From a virus, in IMG/VR virus record IMGVR_UViG_3300026512_000048, positions 1 through 31,064 of that record: DNA of 31,064 nucleotides. One strand, given 5' to 3'. The notes under the pieces are model-generated. The model did not search any database, had not been told where the DNA came from, and was given only the letters and a program-made list of their open reading frames with translations. Positions within the stretch are counted from its first letter, which is position 1. Each line of letters opens with the position of its first letter. This document shows positions 1 to 31,064 of the stretch, one piece after another. A program made the translations under genes and the position numbers.

Positions 1-477
1 TAATATGCTCTTGTGTAGGTGTTACTTCAAAATCTTCTTTGCATATATCTACATCAAACATCTCTGCAAAATAGTTTCTTGCTGTCACAGTTCCAAACAT
101 CTTTTCAAAGTTAGCCATTTTAGAAAGCAATGCTATCTTTACACTATCTGCTACCTCTTTTTTCTCCTGAGTTAGATATACTGAAACTTTTAATGATGGT
201 TCACCCTTTACAACTGCTTGATGTTTTTTTACAAACTCCTCATCATAAGCATTTAGCTTTGAGATATTTACAGCTGGATCACATACTACAAGATTCATCA
301 AAACATCTTGACCACCTCTACTCTTTGGTAGTATATGGTCTATATGAAAGTTATCTATATGTAACTTCTTTGAACTATAGTAGCATCTCCCATCAAATGC
401 TTTAAAAAATGCTTTTCTAACTCTCTTGTCTTTTAAATCTACCTCTTTTAAATAGTATGGTGTTTCTTGGCATACTT
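1..477. repeat. Inverted terminal repeat, left copy
   Basis: Positions 1-477 are the reverse complement of 30588-31064 with five differences that I could find (128, 212, 256, 364 and about 456). All five are synonymous in the HNH reading frame. The first 127 bases are identical; the mismatch at 128 pairs with 30937. Homology stops sharply after CTTGGCATACTT at 477, at the junction between the N-terminal domain and the HNH domain. Confidence 0.93.
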
Positions 478-817
478 GGAGGTTTTGTAACTCTTTGATA
501 AACTCTTTTTCTATCGCTATAAAGTATGTACGAACCTCTTTACCTTTTGCTGTACGACTTGCCATTGAAATATGTTTTGCTGTGTCTGTTGTTATGATGT
601 ATTCTGTTTTAATAGTAGTTCCACGACCAGCTTTAACTTTTTGTTTATATGTAATGTAGTCCATATTTTCTTCAAGCCCTAATGTTTTGATTTGAGATTT
701 TATCCAATCTGTAAAAGGTTTTTTAATTTCTAAAGTTTCATATAACTCTCTTACATTTACACTATTTACAGTTTCAGCACCTATTAACACTTGACTTATT
801 TTGATTAACTCTTGCAT
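1..817 (-). CDS. AntA/AntB antirepressor-HNH endonuclease fusion (3' end cut by contig edge)
   Basis: Open reading frame of at least 272 codons that runs off the left edge without a stop. The ATG at 817 follows a good ribosome site (AAGGAAGT). Residues about 15-95 resemble the AntA/AntB antirepressor domain (VNVRELYETLEIKKPFTDWI, then a conserved NMDYI). Residues about 116-190 form an HNH nuclease domain with DGRCYYSSK, HIDHILPKSRGGQ (H158, D160, H161) and a following N-rich segment. Antirepressors normally counter a phage repressor; the HNH part should nick or cut DNA. From residue 116 on, the protein is identical to the gene at the opposite end of the window, which has a different N-terminus. 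It is divergent from a small HTH gene, so it is probably part of the regulatory switch. Its biochemical target is unknown. Confidence 0.8.
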   Translation of the reverse strand, partial: MQELIKISQVLIGAETVNSVNVRELYETLEIKKPFTDWIKSQIKTLGLEENMDYITYKQKVKAGRGTTIKTEYIITTDTAKHISMASRTAKGKEVRTYFIAIEKEFIKELQNLQVCQETPYYLKEVDLKDKRVRKAFFKAFDGRCYYSSKKLHIDNFHIDHILPKSRGGQDVLMNLVVCDPAVNISKLNAYDEEFVKKHQAVVKGEPSLKVSVYLTQEKKEVADSVKIALLSKMANFEKMFGTVTARNYFAEMFDVDICKEDFEVTPTQEHI

Positions 818-947
818 ATTACTTCCTTTAACTATTGATTTTATAGTTTATATTAAAAATTATATATAATTTAAATATATTTGTCAAGTTTAAAACTATT
901 ATATTAAATATATTTAGCTATAATTAAAACTATAAAATCAAGATATT
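818..947. promoter_or_regulatory. Divergent promoter/operator region between antirepressor-HNH and HTH gene 1
   Basis: Very AT-rich divergent intergenic region. It has a perfect 15-bp inverted repeat, TTGATTTTATAGTTT at 835-849 and AAACTATAAAATCAA at 927-941, with an AGTTTaAAACT palindrome between the arms. A rightward -10 box TATAAT lies at 919-924. The paired distant sites suggest a repressor that binds both divergent promoters, possibly by looping; that is inference. Confidence 0.55.
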
Positions 948-975
948 AAGCACATCACTTTTAGGTGAGATGCTT
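948..975 (+). promoter_or_regulatory. Leader hairpin upstream of HTH gene 1 (UUUUAR loop)
   Basis: AAGCA and TCAC pair with GTGA and TGCTT around the hexaloop TTTTAG, about 24 nt downstream of the TATAAT box and 15 nt before the start codon. The same position and loop recur before the HTH genes at 1831 and 2998 with different stem sequences, which points to a conserved RNA structure or to operator sites of diverged specificity. Confidence 0.5.
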
Positions 976-990
976 TAAAATAGGACATAA

Positions 991-1203
991 ATGAACTATA
1001 AAGAGTTTGAAGAAGAATTAAAAAAAGTAAAACTTAATAAAAAAGAATTTTCAGCTATAACTGAATTATCATATCAAACTGTTATGAATTGGAACAATAC
1101 TGATAATGTTCCAAAATGGGTAAAAAGTTGGCTATCAAACTATATTAAGGCAAAAGAGTTTGATAATGTGATAAAATCTGTTAAACCATATATTAAGGAT
1201 TAA
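991..1203 (+). CDS. Small HTH regulator, family member 1
   Basis: 70-residue Cro/XRE-like DNA-binding protein. The helix-turn-helix is visible in residues about 15-37 (LNKKEFSAITELSYQTVMNW), followed by a conserved PKWVKSWLSNY segment. Start chosen at 991 behind TAGGAC. Two paralogues follow at 1831 and 2998. Unlike them, it is not followed by a nuclease gene. After its stop there is an ATG-less coding remnant (about 1207-1287, reading KKIVLDIEKIKKLVEIKEM), which may be what is left of a partner gene. Probable role: autorepressor or antitoxin-like regulator; the partner is not identified. Confidence 0.75.
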   Translation: MNYKEFEEELKKVKLNKKEFSAITELSYQTVMNWNNTDNVPKWVKSWLSNYIKAKEFDNVIKSVKPYIKD

Positions 1204-1272
1204 ATATAAAAAAAATAGTTTTAGATATAGAAAAGATAAAAAAGCTTGTTGAGATAAAAGAGATGGTAAGAG

Positions 1273-1449
1273 ATGAAAAATACTGAAATTACAAATATAA
1301 TTAATATACCTGCTTCTACATTGTCAGATTGGAAAATCAAAGATGTTTCTAATTGGAGAAAAATAATTTATGAACTATTATCAAATACTGATAAAGAAGA
1401 GTTAATTAAAAAAGTAGAGGCTATAAGGCTTTTAAAAGGTTTAGAATAA
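1273..1449 (+). CDS. Tiny HTH protein, left copy
   Basis: 58-residue protein starting MKNTEITNIINIPASTLSDW, preceded by GGTAAGAG. The segment IPASTLSDWKIKD looks like the recognition part of a helix-turn-helix, and the rest is predicted helical. A near-identical protein (one visible change, N3 to D) is encoded at 30005-30181 on the opposite strand. Both copies are convergent with a truncated Rha gene, so the two genes form a conserved pair that was duplicated in inverted orientation. Probably a DNA-binding regulator; function unknown. Confidence 0.65.
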   Translation: MKNTEITNIINIPASTLSDWKIKDVSNWRKIIYELLSNTDKEELIKKVEAIRLLKGLE

Positions 1450-1485
1450 TGGGGTTTTGATTTTTTTGGTTGTTCTCCTTTTCCA

Positions 1486-1656
1486 TTATTTACTACCCCC
1501 CTCCGTTTGAAACGGAAGGGTACCAAACTGTTTAAAATCATCTTCATATTTACGAATAATCTCATTTACATTTTTTTGATTATTGTTTGTGTTCTCAGCT
1601 ATAACTCTATGGCTAACTCTTGGCTCATTTTCCACTACTTTTATTAACTCTTGCAT
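1486..1656 (-). CDS. Truncated Rha-type regulator, left copy
   Basis: 56 residues, start at 1656 behind AAGGAAT; an in-frame ATG at 1677 has no ribosome site. The motif EPRVSHRVIAENTNNNQKNV is the N-terminal half of the phage Rha regulator domain (family proteins are usually well over 150 residues), so the protein is truncated. Reading ends soon after LPFQTE, which is encoded by a 15-bp palindrome at 1502-1516. The right-hand copy (29811-30086) diverges at the same palindrome. It may be a relic, or a minimal protein that interferes with full-length Rha-like antirepressors. Confidence 0.6.
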   Translation of the reverse strand: MQELIKVVENEPRVSHRVIAENTNNNQKNVNEIIRKYEDDFKQFGTLPFQTEGGSK

Positions 1657-1785
1657 TTTAAATTCCTTTTTATTCAATTGAATAATTTATATTGGAATTG
1701 TATATCTAATTAGATAAATCTTAGCTTAATTAATTATTCATTTAGATATATTTTGATAAAATATCTTATTCAAATAAGTAAATAC
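1657..1785. promoter_or_regulatory. Divergent operator region between truncated Rha and HTH gene 2
   Basis: Contains perfect palindromes TTATTCAATTGAATAA (1670-1685) and ATCTAATTAGAT (1704-1715), plus an imperfect inverted repeat around 1744-1765. A rightward -10-like TAAAAT lies at 1757-1762. Likely repressor binding sites for one or both flanking genes. Confidence 0.5.
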
Positions 1786-1809
1786 CTTTTTCACTTTTAA
1801 GTGATAAAG
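1786..1809 (+). promoter_or_regulatory. Leader hairpin upstream of HTH gene 2 (UUUUAR loop)
   Basis: CTTT and TCAC pair with GTGA and AAAG around the loop TTTTAA, about 24 nt after the -10 box. The GTG inside this stem at 1801 could be mistaken for a start codon. Confidence 0.5.
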
Positions 1810-1830
1810 TCTATTTTTAGGGGTTTTTCA

Positions 1831-2037
1831 ATGACAAAAGAAGAATATAATCAAAAACTAAAAGAAGTTAAATTAACAAAAAAAGAATTGGCTCATATAC
1901 TTGGTGTAGCTGAACAAACTGTAAATAATTGGGGAAGCACAAATAAAGTTCCATATTGGATAGATACTTGGCTACAAAACTACATAGATAAAAAGAAATT
2001 TGATAATATTAAGAATATAATAAAAGATGAGATATAA
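1831..2037 (+). CDS. Small HTH regulator, family member 2 (nuclease cassette 1)
   Basis: 68 residues from the ATG at 1831, which sits behind TTTTAGGGG; the upstream GTG at 1801 lies in the leader hairpin and was rejected. The HTH is LTKKELAHILGVAEQTVNNW (residues about 12-31), followed by VPYWIDTWLQNY. The last 22 residues are identical to those of the paralogue at 2998, and the DNA from 1969 to 2052 matches 3139-3222 with one difference, whereas the N-terminal halves are diverged. The stop is 9 nt before a BECR-type nuclease gene, so the two are co-transcribed. By analogy with toxin-antitoxin operons it may repress the operon or neutralise the nuclease; this is inference. Confidence 0.75.
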   Translation: MTKEEYNQKLKEVKLTKKELAHILGVAEQTVNNWGSTNKVPYWIDTWLQNYIDKKKFDNIKNIIKDEI

Positions 2038-2046
2038 AATTCATTT

Positions 2047-2538
2047 ATGGAAAAAGAAGATATAGAAGCTCTTAGTTATGATGATTTCAATAAGATTGCA
2101 TTAAAAAGATGGCAGAAATTAGAAAAAGACTTTATTAAACTTAAACAAATTGAAGATAAAAAGAAAAACAAACTTACATCTGACCAAGAAAGTGTGTATA
2201 AATTTATAATGGGTGATACTAAAAAAGCACAATTCACTGTAAAAGATATAAATATATCATTTGGTAAAGGCAATAAAAGAGAAGGTTTAAAACATATCCT
2301 CCTTAGACACTACTGTGAAGGGTGTGATGGTGAGATAAGAGCTAGAGATATACTAAATATTGGTAATATTATTAAAAATGGAAACCCCATAGCTACAATA
2401 GAAACAGACAGCTATAATAGTAATAATGGACTAACAGGATATACTCAAGAGAAAGCAGGACATATCTATAAGCTAATAATAAATGAAAAAGGGCATATCA
2501 GTCAAATAATAACAACTTACAGTAATAAAAATGGATAG
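2047..2538 (+). CDS. Putative BECR-fold (barnase/EndoU/colicin/RelE-like) nuclease, cassette 1
   Basis: 163 residues. The N-terminal ~60 residues are charged and helical (possible coiled coil). The C-terminal part has GLKHILLRHYCEG (residues about 81-93), then a DILNIGNIIKNG helix and beta-rich segments ending SQIITTYSN. The KHILxRH motif followed by an xxIxxIIxxG helix is typical of phage-associated BECR nuclease domains found at the ends of MuF-type and polymorphic toxins; here the domain stands alone. It lies just downstream of HTH gene 2. H84 and H88 are the likely catalytic residues. Assignment is by motif memory only, so an RNase activity is plausible but unproven. It could serve as an accessory toxin or defence nuclease. 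Confidence 0.5.
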   Translation: MEKEDIEALSYDDFNKIALKRWQKLEKDFIKLKQIEDKKKNKLTSDQESVYKFIMGDTKKAQFTVKDINISFGKGNKREGLKHILLRHYCEGCDGEIRARDILNIGNIIKNGNPIATIETDSYNSNNGLTGYTQEKAGHIYKLIINEKGHISQIITTYSNKNG

Positions 2539-2686
2539 GGGCAAGAACACTTTAAACCTCCGAATGGGTAAACAAACATAAATTATGTAAGCGTGCCTCA
2601 CGATCCCGTATCGCTGAATAAGACGACGAATTTACGTCACACAATATACAAAAATATATATTCTATGAAGCAAATAATCAGTAGCT

Positions 2687-2769
2687 AAAATAAGACAAGA
2701 AAGGACAGATAAAACGAATCATCACTCTGATTCTACCTTTTAAAGGCTTATCTGCAACCCTCTCTCTGT
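2687..2769 (-). ncRNA. Candidate structured small RNA, copy 1
   Basis: A minus-strand -10 box TATAAT (2776-2781) would start an RNA near 2769 reading GGAAACAGAGAGAGGG. It then folds as a long stem CAGAUAA/UUAUCUG (2748-2754 with 2706-2712) enclosing a perfect hairpin GAATCA/TGATTC (2716-2721, 2728-2733) and a CCTT/AAGG hairpin, and ends in a U-rich tail. In copy 2 the stem changes G to A on the plus strand, which keeps a G-U pair only in minus-strand RNA. It is convergent with the nuclease gene and could act on its mRNA. Confidence 0.45.
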
Positions 2770-2924
2770 TTCCTGATTATATACTGATAGAACTTTATAA
2801 ATACTTAATAATAATTAAAATCACATTAATCAATTTTAAGATGAGCTGTTTTCTTAGCTCTTTGCACCTGTTCATATTTCGCATAATCATCTTAGTAACC
2901 CAGTAATCTTTAGTTAATTTTATG

Positions 2925-2930
2925 TATAAT
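2925..2930 (+). promoter_or_regulatory. -10 box of HTH gene 3
   Basis: TATAAT in the context ATGTATAATAA at the right end of the direct repeat, so the repeat supplies the promoter of the next cassette. The leader hairpin follows about 20 nt later. Confidence 0.55.
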
Positions 2931-2950
2931 AATTTAATCAAAGATGAAAA

Positions 2951-2979
2951 AGTTCACTCCCCTTTTAGGGGGAATGACT
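2951..2979 (+). promoter_or_regulatory. Leader hairpin upstream of HTH gene 3 (UUUUAR loop)
   Basis: TCA and CCCC pair with GGGG and TGA around the loop TTTTAG, about 20 nt after the -10 box and before ATAGGAC and the start codon. The stem is unrelated in sequence to those before HTH genes 1 and 2, but loop and position are the same. Confidence 0.5.
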
Positions 2980-2997: not shown

Positions 2998-3207
2998 ATG
3001 AAAAAACAAGAATTTGATAAAACTTTAAAAGATATTGGCTTATCAAGACAAAAATTTGCAGATAAAACAAATTTATCTTATGGTGCAGTAAGTAATTGGC
3101 ACGATGAAAAGAAACCAGTACCAGGTTGGGTAAAAAGTTGGCTACAAAACTATATAGATAAAAAGAAATTTGATAATATTAAGAATATAATAAAAGATGA
3201 GATATAA
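2998..3207 (+). CDS. Small HTH regulator, family member 3 (nuclease cassette 2)
   Basis: 69 residues from the ATG at 2998 behind ATAGGAC; the in-frame ATG at 2944 lies before the leader hairpin and was rejected. The HTH is LSRQKFADKTNLSYGAVSNW (residues about 13-32), followed by VPGWVKSWLQNY. The C-terminal 22 residues equal those of family member 2. It is followed by a broken second HTH gene and a BECR-type nuclease gene in one apparent operon. A fragment of this gene (NLSYGAVSNWHDEKK) reappears at 4182-4253, which shows local duplication and deletion. Probable autoregulator or antitoxin-like partner. Confidence 0.75.
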   Translation: MKKQEFDKTLKDIGLSRQKFADKTNLSYGAVSNWHDEKKPVPGWVKSWLQNYIDKKKFDNIKNIIKDEI

Positions 3208-3216
3208 AATTCATTT

Positions 3217-3355
3217 ATGGAAAAAGTAACATATAAAGATATAGCAAATTATTTGGATACTTTTTGACCTTTTGGGAACTTTAATGTGTTAAAATATGTA
3301 AAATTAAAAGAGGTGCATTGAGTTGAAAGAGATAGTTAAAAAAGGTGGGAAGTAG
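3217..3355 (+). pseudogene. Broken copy of the MEKV-type HTH gene
   Basis: Starts MEKVTYKDIANYLD, identical to the intact gene at 29463-29660, but hits a stop at 3265 after 16 codons. Unrelated sequence follows, then the original 3' end reappears (ELKEIVKKGGK, about 3321-3355). The final TAG overlaps the GTG of the nuclease gene (TAGTG), so the ancestral gene was probably translationally coupled to it. The internal part was replaced or lost. Confidence 0.75.
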
Positions 3356-3762
3356 TGCCTGAACTTAGAGATAAGATATGTGCTCTTAGTCAGATTTCTA
3401 TTGAAGATAAACAACATGATGATAGTATTTATTTTCCATTATCTGATAGAGCTATCACTGAGATAGGTAAAGTTATCTTTAGAGCTAAACTAAAAGAGTA
3501 TAAGTTTGAAATAAACTCTCACGACATCAGACATACGAAGAAACGCCACCCAAATGACTTTCACTATGTATGTGAGATTCCAAAGATAGTTACAGAATTT
3601 ACTAAAGTAAAACATAGCTTAATAAAACATAAAAAAACTGGAAAAACTATCCAAAGCATAGAGTTTTATAAAAAATTTGATGATACTGAAGTTAAACTTG
3701 TAAAGGTTGATTTGTTGAAAGAAAAGATATTGAGGTTAAAGACTATCTTTATCCCTAGTTAA
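3355..3762 (+). CDS. Putative BECR-fold nuclease, cassette 2
   Basis: 135 residues from a GTG that overlaps the TAG of the broken gene upstream, behind AAGGTGGGA. The central segment INSHDIRHTKKRHP (residues about 53-66), followed by a short acidic stretch, an IPKIVTEFTKV helix and beta strands (KTIQSIEFYKKFDD), is the layout of the phage BECR-type nuclease domains: an HxxxR/KRH motif and then two strands. H56, R58, H59 and H64 are candidate catalytic residues. No signal peptide or membrane segment. It shows no obvious sequence identity with the nuclease of cassette 1 apart from this motif, so the cassettes carry different effectors behind related HTH genes. Probably a toxin or defence RNase; unproven. 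Confidence 0.5.
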   Translation: MPELRDKICALSQISIEDKQHDDSIYFPLSDRAITEIGKVIFRAKLKEYKFEINSHDIRHTKKRHPNDFHYVCEIPKIVTEFTKVKHSLIKHKKTGKTIQSIEFYKKFDDTEVKLVKVDLLKEKILRLKTIFIPS

Positions 3763-3887: not shown

Positions 3888-4183
3888 CGTCACACAATAT
3901 ACAAAAATATATATTCTATGAAGCAAATAATCAAACAAGAAAGGACAAATAAAAGCGAATCATCACTCTGATTCTACCTTTTAAAGGCTTATCTGCAACC
4001 CTCTCTCTGTTTCCTGATTATATACTGATAGAACTTTATAAATACTTAATAATAATTAAAATCATATTAATTAATTTTAAGTTGAGCTGTTTTCTTAGCT
4101 CTTTGCACCTGTTCATATTTCGCATAATCATCTTAGTAACCCAGTAATCTTTAGTTAATTTTATGTATAATAATTTAATCAAA
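3888..4183. repeat. Long direct repeat, copy 2
   Basis: Second copy of 2635-2942, about 296 bp, downstream of nuclease gene 2. At 4183 it is joined to the middle of a truncated HTH gene and not to a leader hairpin, which marks a deletion between tandem cassettes. Between the nuclease gene hairpin and this repeat (3790-3887) I see no gene. Confidence 0.92.
3933..4010 (-). ncRNA. Candidate structured small RNA, copy 2
   Basis: Minus-strand TATAAT at 4017-4022, expected start near 4010. The outer stem is TTATCTG (3989-3995) against CAAATAA (3946-3952). In minus-strand RNA this reads CAGAUAA with UUAUUUG, so one G-C pair has become G-U and pairing is kept, whereas plus-strand RNA would carry an A-C mismatch. 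The inner GAATCA/TGATTC hairpin is unchanged. The U-rich tail of copy 1 is partly deleted here. Confidence 0.4.
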
Positions 4184-4253
4184 TTTATCTTATGGTGCAG
4201 TAAGTAATTGGCACGATGAAAAGAAGAATGTAATAAAGGATGAAGTAACTTAA
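4182..4253 (+). pseudogene. HTH gene fragment (no start)
   Basis: Reads NLSYGAVSNWHDEKK, identical to the middle of HTH gene 3, then jumps to NVIKDEVT and a stop. It lacks the N-terminus and the WVKSWLQNY region. It is a remnant of a third cassette fused directly to repeat copy 2. Confidence 0.8.
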
Positions 4254-28241: not shown

Positions 28242-28517
28242 ATGATGAAGCACAGAACAGCTATAGACTCCTCTTTGGTATCTAAAATCGGTGGTACAGG
28301 TGTAGCACTTGCAGGTATAGGTAAAGCAGTAGATAGTGATATACAAACAAAGAAAGTAGATGCTGCTAATGCAGCTGCACTTGATTTAAAGACAAAGGCT
28401 GTAAATAGCACGATACGAAGAACTAAAGCAGTTACAGATAGAGAAAATAAGGCAGATATAAAAAAAAGAGAAGAAGCGAAAAGCAAAAATACTATCTATG
28501 AGAAACTTTTTAAGTAA
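28242..28517 (+). CDS. Small putative internal virion protein
   Basis: 91 residues from the ATG at 28242, 1 nt after the previous stop. Again a glycine/alanine-rich start (SKIGGTGVALAGIGKAVDSD), then a long helical, basic tail (KADIKKREEAKSKNTIYEKL). It looks like a paralogue in style of the preceding protein. Confidence 0.55.
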   Translation: MMKHRTAIDSSLVSKIGGTGVALAGIGKAVDSDIQTKKVDAANAAALDLKTKAVNSTIRRTKAVTDRENKADIKKREEAKSKNTIYEKLFK

Positions 28518-28896
28518 AGAGTATAAAGTAGATACATCACAGTATAGTGATGATGATATAGAATTTAATGGTGATAGAATTGAAAAAATCTATAAAGATA
28601 AGACATCAAGAAAACAACCTGCTTTTTACAATACAAATGATGGGATAGTTATGGTTTATGCAGATGAGAACAATAAACCAGTTACAAAACTTGCTTTTAA
28701 ATCGTCTTCTGAAAAAGATGAAAAGTTTGAAAAATGGGCAGATGATAAGGTTCAAGTAGATCCACGAAGTGGTTTATATGATGCAGAAGAGTTATATCAA
28801 TACAATGGTAAAGGTAGTTACTATGCTTCTAAAAAGACTTTTGAAGAAGCCCAGCAGGTGCAAAGAGCTAAGAAAACAGCTAAGTTAAAATTATAG
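28498..28896 (+). CDS. Last gene of the virion operon, unknown
   Basis: 132 residues, overlapping the previous gene by 20 nt. Mostly polar, with YKVDTSQYSDDDIEFNGDRI, beta strands around GIVMVYADENNKPVTKLAF and a basic C-terminal helix (FEEAQQVQRAKKTAKLKL). No family recognised. Confidence 0.6.
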   Translation: MRNFLSKEYKVDTSQYSDDDIEFNGDRIEKIYKDKTSRKQPAFYNTNDGIVMVYADENNKPVTKLAFKSSSEKDEKFEKWADDKVQVDPRSGLYDAEELYQYNGKGSYYASKKTFEEAQQVQRAKKTAKLKL

Positions 28897-29462
28897 TAAT
28901 GTTTTTTTTAGAGAAAATTAGATAATATCTCATTTCATTTAGGTTGGTTCTGTATAAATCTAAGTGTTGTTCGTTCTTTTATTTTTATATAGATGCAATA
29001 AAAGTTTAATTTTTTGTGATTTTTGAACATTGGATGTGGTGTTAGAGTCTAGCGACTTGAGGAGTTCAAAACACGGAGTATTAAGTATAATGGAACTGTT
29101 TATTTTAATAGTTAATTTTATATGGAGTATAGCTCAGATAATAGTTTATTTTACGAAGTAACTTTATCTGAACTGATTAAACTAGAGTTGCCTTTGCACG
29201 GCTAAACTAACCTTTGCTTGGTTAGAATAAAAGCAGAGTAAATTTGGATAGGTTCTTTTATATGCCCTTATAAGTGAACCGTAGTTGATAATGACTTCAA
29301 ATTTCTCTATATAAAATAATAACACACAAAAATAAAAATAAAAATAAAATCTTTCAAAAAATACTACTCTTTTTATAATGTTTTTGTAAAATCTTCTTTT
29401 TTCATCGTTCAAAGCCCTAATCTTAGTCATTTGCCCAAAAAGTCAAATGAGTTATTTTATAT
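28897..29462. other. Intergenic region between virion operon and right accessory end
   Basis: No convincing gene. Hairpins: TCAGATAA (29134-29141) with TTATCTGA (29164-29171), and CTAACC (29207-29212) with GGTTAG (29220-29225). A minus-strand ORF at 29182-29430 (82 codons, with FERFYFYFYF) has no ribosome site and is left out. Confidence 0.45.
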
Positions 29463-30181: not shown

Positions 30182-30307
30182 AATGAAATACTACCATAAA
30201 TAAATTCGTATTTCATTTAAAACCCCGTAATACACTTGACATTTATTCTGAAATGATGATACACTTCCGTAATACGAAAATATAACTAAAATACGAAAAG
30301 GAAACAA
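30182..30307. promoter_or_regulatory. Divergent operator region with CGTAATAC and ATACGAAA repeats
   Basis: Perfect inverted repeat AATGAAATAC (30182-30191) with GTATTTCATT (30208-30217); CCGTAATAC twice (about 30225 and 30275); AATACGAAAA twice (about 30279 and 30291), the second just before the ribosome site AAAAGGAAA. Probably operators for the HTH protein or an antirepressor target. Confidence 0.6.
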
Positions 30308-31064
30308 ATGCAACTTATTAAAACTGAAATATCACTGACTAGCATAGAAATAGCAGAACTTACTGCTAAACAGCATAAGAATGTTAAAAGAGATATCGAA
30401 TCTCAATTGGGTGAATTAGGTGATGTGCTCAAATTTGAGCATATCTATAAAGATACTAGGAACAGAAATCAAACTATGTATGTACTTCCAAAAAGAGAAG
30501 TCCTTATTCTAGTAAGTGGTTATAATGTAAAACTTAGAGCTTCTATTATTGATAGGCTTGAATATCTTGAGAACAACCTCCAACCCAAAGTATGCCAAGA
30601 AACACCATATTATTTAAAAGAGGTAGATTTAAAAGACAAGAGAGTTAGAAAAGCATTTTTTAAAGCATTTGATGGGAGATGCTACTATAGTTCAAAGAAG
30701 CTACATATAGATAACTTTCATATAGACCATATACTACCAAAGAGTAGAGGTGGTCAAGATGTTTTGATGAATCTTGTAGTATGTGATCCAGCTGTAAATA
30801 TCTCAAAGTTAAATGCTTATGATGAGGAGTTTGTAAAAAAACATCAAGCAGTGGTAAAGGGTGAACCATCATTAAAAGTTTCAGTATATCTAACTCAGGA
30901 GAAAAAAGAGGTAGCAGATAGTGTAAAGATAGCATTACTTTCTAAAATGGCTAACTTTGAAAAGATGTTTGGAACTGTGACAGCAAGAAACTATTTTGCA
31001 GAGATGTTTGATGTAGATATATGCAAAGAAGATTTTGAAGTAACACCTACACAAGAGCATATTA
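30308..31064 (+). CDS. Rha-family regulator-HNH endonuclease fusion (3' end cut by contig edge)
   Basis: At least 252 codons, no stop before the right edge; ATG at 30308 behind AAAAGGAAA. Residues about 8-85 are a full Rha-type domain: LTSIEIAELTAKQHKNVKRD, then YVLPKREVLILVSGYNVKLR and an ASIIDRLEYLE helix. From about residue 95 (VCQETPYYLKEVDL) the protein is identical to the HNH part of the gene at the left edge, including HIDHILPKSRGG. Thus two different antirepressor-type domains are joined to one HNH domain. Role inferred: phage regulator with nuclease function, possibly acting on competing elements; target unknown. Confidence 0.8.
   Translation, partial: MQLIKTEISLTSIEIAELTAKQHKNVKRDIESQLGELGDVLKFEHIYKDTRNRNQTMYVLPKREVLILVSGYNVKLRASIIDRLEYLENNLQPKVCQETPYYLKEVDLKDKRVRKAFFKAFDGRCYYSSKKLHIDNFHIDHILPKSRGGQDVLMNLVVCDPAVNISKLNAYDEEFVKKHQAVVKGEPSLKVSVYLTQEKKEVADSVKIALLSKMANFEKMFGTVTARNYFAEMFDVDICKEDFEVTPTQEHI
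30588..31064. repeat. Inverted terminal repeat, right copy
   Basis: Reverse complement of 1-477, with the last 127 bases identical and the first mismatch from the end at 30937. The boundary at 30588 is the junction between the Rha-type and HNH parts of the gene. Confidence 0.93.

Follow-up and report, generated by a model that had tools for sequence, protein, structure and literature searches.

A leader hairpin of repressor-like HTH genes in antA-type switches of Campylobacterota phages as a candidate cis-acting RNA element

The 5' leader of a repressor-like HTH gene in the antA-type switches of Campylobacterota phages carries a hairpin, H1, which may well be a cis-acting RNA element. H1 probably acts as RNA, and quite possibly does so as a translational operator to which a factor is bound. 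The window, that is the whole stretch of 31,064 nucleotides analysed, is the viral record IMGVR_UViG_3300026512_000048 (31 kb), which contains terminase, portal-type, primase and methyltransferase genes, as well as three paralogous HTH genes, u1, u2 and u3, whose proteins have pairwise identities of 46-53%. The HTH family, PHROG 8898, is present in 165 of the 397 Campylobacterota genomes sampled, the named carriers of relatives being Sulfurimonas, Sulfuricurvum, Aliarcobacter, Arcobacter and Campylobacter; in an AlphaFold model of u3 the recognition helix is formed by residues 28-32. The HTH genes and the divergent genes that face them are:

1..817, minus strand: AntA-type antirepressor gene, divergent, facing u1; C-terminal part HNH-like; runs off the window edge
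991..1203, plus strand: HTH gene u1, 70 aa, PHROG 8898
1486..1677, minus strand: short Rha-like/ant-like gene, divergent, facing u2
1831..2037, plus strand: HTH gene u2, 68 aa, PHROG 8898; weak similarity to Phage_CI_repr/HTH_3
2998..3207, plus strand: HTH gene u3, 69 aa, PHROG 8898

The antirepressor gene is matched by the ant profile with an E-value of 1e-56, the AntA family (PF08346) having been identified in its relatives, and its predicted promoter, TTGACA-17-TATAAT at 887-859, faces u1. A 477-nt inverted repeat (99%) is found at both contig ends (1-477 and 30588-31064), and the contig end is probably a repeat; after it come further mirrored modules (1273-1458/29996-30181 and 1501-1684/29783-29966), the regulatory region thus being present in two copies. 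One HNH-like C-terminal part is found with two N-termini, that of AntA at 1-817 (minus strand) and a different one at 30300-31064 (plus strand). There is also a 232-nt direct repeat (98%) at 2711-2942 and 3952-4183, which ends in a truncated copy of u3 (4177-4225) and also takes in, inverted, a piece from the 3' end of the phage gene at 28498-28896. The genes downstream of u2 and u3 (2047-2538 and 3355-3762) are an ORF of 163 aa, whose HILLRHYC motif is found again in locus L234, and a PBECR3-like nuclease (PF18812, E 1e-8); toxin-like genes downstream of HTH genes, as in the window, occur again in L224.

The near-identical phages L225 and L226 differ at ~1600-2000, where the promoter, the operators and the half of the HTH gene that encodes the N-terminus are exchanged; on sequence comparison this reads as an immunity-specificity swap with its junction within the conserved SWLENYIKAK codons. 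The 3' halves of u2 and u3 are common to both, the same pattern as in this swap.

The sequence-only reading of this DNA had described three hairpins, one before each paralogous HTH gene, with the loop UUUUAG or UUUUAA closed by a C-G pair, and all three are present as claimed and non-random. The count itself was incomplete, as a fourth copy lies detached near the other end of the window:

949..974, plus strand: H1 of u1, AGCACATCAC-TTTTAG-GTGAGATGCT; 8/10 paired, mean pair probability 0.79
1785..1810, plus strand: H1 of u2, CCTTTTTCAC-TTTTAA-GTGATAAAGT; 8/10 paired, pair probability 0.75
2953..2978, plus strand: H1 of u3, TTCACTCCCC-TTTTAG-GGGGAATGAC; 8/10 paired, pair probability 0.71
29426..29451, minus strand: fourth H1 (u4), detached, CTCATTTGAC-TTTTTG-GGCAAATGAC

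Directly downstream of the u4 hairpin, on the minus strand, is a truncated HTH start (MKKEDFTKTL), and both hairpin and start are identical to those of L004 (IMGVR 3300026484_000162). On the plus strand of the window five hairpins of the H1 loop class have 7/10 pairs or more, against 1.0 expected, and those of u1, u2 and u3 are the only ones to reach 8/10. The loop type occurs in 61 of 959 background hairpins of equal geometry (6%). When the 31-kb record is searched with a covariance model built from 19 hairpins, those of the window included, the window H1s are recovered with E-values of 7e-7 to 4e-6, and an Rfam scan of the window gave no match at the gathering score.

Viral contigs, plasmids and genomes supplied relatives of the HTH genes, each of which was inspected over the 75 nt that precede its HTH start. 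This search for the hairpin pattern before homologous genes, which the sequence-only reading had proposed, gave 22 distinct H1 hairpins with arms of 10 bp and the loop UUUU(A/U)(G/A). The loops are TTTTAG, TTTTTG, TTTTAA and close variants, and the closing C-G pair is present in 22/22, in part because it was required as a selection criterion in the later scans. In 21 of the 22 the U-rich loop is on the sense strand, the exception being L326 (676-701 of the oriented locus), where the loop is inverted to CTAAAA and the arms are still paired. Pairing is conserved well above the controls: 88.6% of cells are paired against 63.2% in shuffles, there are 58 double-change cells against 23.9, six of the ten stem pairs show changes on both sides, and the covariation score of 0.64 compares with 0.21 in shuffles (0/500 as high) and at most 0.13 in slid registers. 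The earlier claim that pairing is kept in otherwise unrelated stems therefore holds for the pairing, borne out by the double changes, and not for the stems, for which outer families emerge once relatives are added (ACTTTT/AAAAGT, AGCATT/AATGCT and TCATTT/AAATGA).

H1 thus passes a double-sided covariation test above its controls, as a DNA palindrome would too. Indeed, pairing by itself is no proof of RNA, because in the inner stem just 4 of the 18 non-Watson-Crick cells are G-U pairs, which is not above the frequency of random change. The RNA z-scores of single leaders are modest (-0.5 for u2), and the pair probability of H1 within its leader is 0.6-0.99 for most, with two at 0.29 and 0.43.

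Counted from the predicted -10 box, the leader runs from the promoter to the HTH operator (about +1 to +16) and on through H1 (about +16 to +42) to the Shine-Dalgarno and start codon. The hairpin had been placed 20-25 nt past the -10 box, which agrees with 24 nt in u1 and 22 nt in u3, the automatic -10 call for u2 being unsure; these distances put its start at about +16 rather than at the "+12 or so" that had been suggested. The distance from -10 to start is ~70 nt in leaders with H1 versus 32 nt in those without (n=74), and H1 is thus a block of ~38 nt inserted downstream of the operator, which is at the transcript start, and upstream of the ribosome site. For 14 of 15 genes, 19-21 nt separate its 3' edge from the start codon (16 in u1), and in L226 only 13 nt separate -10 and H1, yet the distance from H1 to the start is kept at 21. 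RNA-level action is inferred because this edge roughly coincides with the upstream limit of the 30S footprint and because the loop and closing pair resemble a recognition element on a free stem. RNA is favoured over DNA since the loop is oriented and conserved and the start-codon distance fixed; the inverted loop of L326, which a loop-reading factor would not be expected to tolerate, is evidence against this.

An mRNA hairpin could also act purely physically, by protecting the 5' end from decay or as a spacer between operator RNA and ribosome site. The location of H1 between these two, the free variation of its stems and the insertion as a block would all suit such a role, as would L218 and L220, which have an L004-type recognition helix and carry long hairpins of quite different sequence in the place of H1 (e.g. 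GACAGTACCGATTTTAAATCGGTACTGTC). We nevertheless consider it unlikely, as a loop with a background frequency of only 6% is conserved, the openness of the ribosome site is unaffected, and H1 follows antA and not the operator type.

A weak terminator or pause hairpin, that is an attenuator, is a more doubtful proposition still. A short U-rich stretch often comes after H1 (CUAUUUUUAGG) and similar loops are seen in terminator-like hairpins of Campylobacterota genomes; however, that stretch is short and offset, with no T tract directly after the stem, and a terminator scan calls none of the three window H1s on the sense strand.

The other half of the earlier proposal was that each HTH protein has a private palindromic operator in H1. 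The palindrome is close to +1, its G-U pairs are few, and with inner half sites of 4 bp on either side of an AT-rich centre of 6 bp it resembles a 434-type operator in geometry. Candidate operators of the HTH proteins are, however, found elsewhere in the same promoters:

835..849: candidate HTH operator TTGATTTTATAGTTT in the divergent ant promoter of u1; 15/15 inverted match to 927-941
927..941: candidate HTH operator AAACTATAAAATCAA at the u1 transcript start, from the repeat search
1670..1685: candidate u2 operator TTATTCAATTGAATAA, with related sites at 1734-1748 and 1765-1780; for u2 alone not above shuffles
2931..2945: candidate u3 operator AATTTAATCAAAGAT, with an inverted partner at 2906-2920; alone not above shuffles

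Promoter repeats of this kind are found per locus, often starting ~20, 51, 83 and 113 nt before H1, with copies at the divergent promoter. The pair at 835-849 and 927-941 is found also in L234, whose HTH protein has the recognition helix of u1, and the u3 motif is seen again in other loci with the SYGAV helix (L222, L227 and L228). In the automatic repeat test several single loci were not above shuffles, and the operator claim therefore rests on the comparison across loci, where HTH proteins have promoter inverted repeats that match their recognition helix. Across the 13 loci that have both genes, the recognition helix gives a Mantel r of 0.70 (0/5000 permutations) with the 20 nt before H1, versus r=0.17 (p=0.07) with the H1 stems; against the whole N-terminal part of the HTH protein H1 gives r 0.42, as physical linkage predicts.

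Furthermore, proteins with the same helix and matching operators have differing H1s or none. The helix common to u1 and L234 goes with a 15/15 operator match and different H1s, L004, L014, L061 and L219 have one recognition helix and four different H1s, and L036, L218, L220 and L221 have the helix of the L004 group and no H1 of this type. Apart from tandem-leader loci and a few borderline cases, H1 recurs in the promoter region no more than chance predicts, and the ant promoter has no copy of the H1 sequence. The loop is asymmetric and oriented, and in L225 and L226 another H1 precedes a 117-aa non-HTH gene, probably as a leader that switched genes. As an operator of the 434/P22 type H1 was rejected on two counts, following neither the recognition helix nor the repetition expected at both controlled promoters. 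It is very probably not the operator of the HTH protein, a site private to each paralogue being very improbable, and of the two readings put forward from the sequence it is the RNA element that gains, through covariation, loop orientation and start-codon spacing, and the private operator that loses.

Homologous genes without a hairpin at this place were what the earlier reading had named as its refutation. About 160 of the 175 HTH relatives are indeed without H1, which is no general part of the HTH family; it belongs to the subset of HTH genes that face antA. A divergent antA (PF08346) gene lies beside 12 of the 15 H1 genes versus 4 of the 160 others, an association with a Fisher value of 7e-13 when relatedness is ignored. 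These four antA-HTH pairs are without H1, and the H1 genes without antA are u2, which faces the hybrid ant/Rha-like gene, u3 and the second HTH gene of L225. On a tree of 89 HTH proteins H1 undergoes 14 changes and is scattered like shuffled labels, and simple co-descent with the HTH gene is therefore unlikely. Among antA loci that do not face a gene of the HTH family, a start-coupled H1 is found in L305 only, where just a truncated remnant of the HTH gene is left. The antA searches relied on an ant profile in which some rows carry a few unsourced C-terminal residues, as does the last row of profile A13, and these profiles served for searching only. H1 as a general genomic element was also considered and rejected, its models matching few places in Campylobacterota genomes; the HTH leaders of G001 and G322 aside, these matches resemble terminators or coding sequence.

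The antA association, together with the few G-U pairs and the single loop-inverted hairpin of L326, could also be read as a DNA site of another protein, for example a roadblock that AntA forms in the leader of the repressor. This would seem improbable given the constant orientation in 21/22 hairpins and the spacing in L226, which is kept to the start codon and not to -10. H1 stems correlate with AntA at r 0.28, about the background of HTH with AntA (r 0.30), and the AntA domain model, a confident fold (pLDDT 87), gave in a structure search no confident match, to a DNA-binding fold or any other; for the AntA family no related solved structure was found.

Tandem units (two in L005, three in L229), the detached copies u4 and L296 and the cassette swapping close by would suit a hot spot of recombination or a remnant, folded like an attC or REP site and helping to shuffle regulatory cassettes. 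This is the remotest of the alternatives, as the junction of the L225/L226 swap is inside the HTH coding sequence and not at H1, and the start-codon spacing speaks for a role in expression.

Taken as a cis-acting RNA, H1 would be a translational operator in the repressor mRNA: a trans-acting factor on it would block or stabilise initiation, and its binding would shift the balance of repressor and antirepressor. In folding tests H1 neither exposes nor masks the ribosome site (mean difference 0.02), and hiding or insulation of that site through folding was dropped as having no consistent effect. So was an antisense interaction of the H1 leaders with ant mRNA, there being no signal between cognate (-17.4 kcal/mol) and non-cognate (-16.4 kcal/mol) pairs. 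A bound factor is the most economical reading because H1 changes no ribosome-site openness and pairs with no cognate ant mRNA. Candidates would be AntA, whose gene accompanies H1, the HTH protein, in the manner of Aca2, or a host protein. H1 occurs independently of HTH lineage, which argues against a requirement for the HTH protein and, together with the antA link, suggests AntA as the binder just as much. That AntA is (also) a post-transcriptional antirepressor, which binds H1 in the repressor mRNA and halts repressor synthesis, is a speculative extension to which we give only a small chance; were it to read only the loop and closing pair, the stem would be free to drift.

Several known systems are similar in part. 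Phage translational operators such as those of the MS2 coat protein and the T4 gp43 and RegA sites are hairpins near the ribosome site, and they share with H1 this position, a conserved loop and a covarying stem; the ribosome site is, however, outside H1, whose bound protein is putative. Operators of 434/P22-type repressors consist of half-site, AT-rich centre and half-site, a geometry that H1 has too, although it ignores the recognition helix, has an oriented loop and is accompanied by other operators. In P1/P7 an antisense RNA, c4, controls ant mRNA, and the likeness lies in an RNA control, here proposed, in a switch with an Ant antirepressor; H1, in contrast, is on the repressor side, with no cognate pairing to ant mRNA found. 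Aca2 is said, in a 2024 report, to bind RNA stem-loops in its own mRNA and to block translation.

Aca2 of phage ZF40 is a small phage HTH protein with the promoter inverted repeats IR1 and IR2 (PMC8434428). It is the nearest solved fold to the u3 HTH model (TM 0.70, E 0.17), and here too the HTH family has promoter repeats that track the recognition helix and a conserved stem-loop, predicted to be transcribed, in the leader before the HTH gene. By analogy the Aca2 precedent makes autoregulation through HTH-RNA binding plausible. Unlike the proteins here, Aca2 has a dimerisation domain of its own, and H1 is missing from most of the HTH family and accompanies antA. Sequence homology to Aca2 was not found, the HTH sequence profile matching other HTH proteins at E of at least 0.006, and no acr (anti-CRISPR) gene was seen in the loci read.

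A search of the literature found no description of the H1 leader element, which is apparently an undescribed element of a known general kind. For the RNA and DNA readings L326, with its inverted loop, is a test case, and H1 is itself a further, testable instance for a question that Aca2 raised, namely how common RNA hairpins are beside DNA operators in small phage HTH switches. If the RNA reading is true, an undescribed leader RNA element is present in a repressor gene of Campylobacterota phages, and the DNA operators of the repressor would be set apart from an RNA-level control tied to antA. H1 would then probably give the lysis-lysogeny switch a second, RNA-level control, and were AntA to bind H1 RNA this switch would contain an RNA-level double-negative loop.
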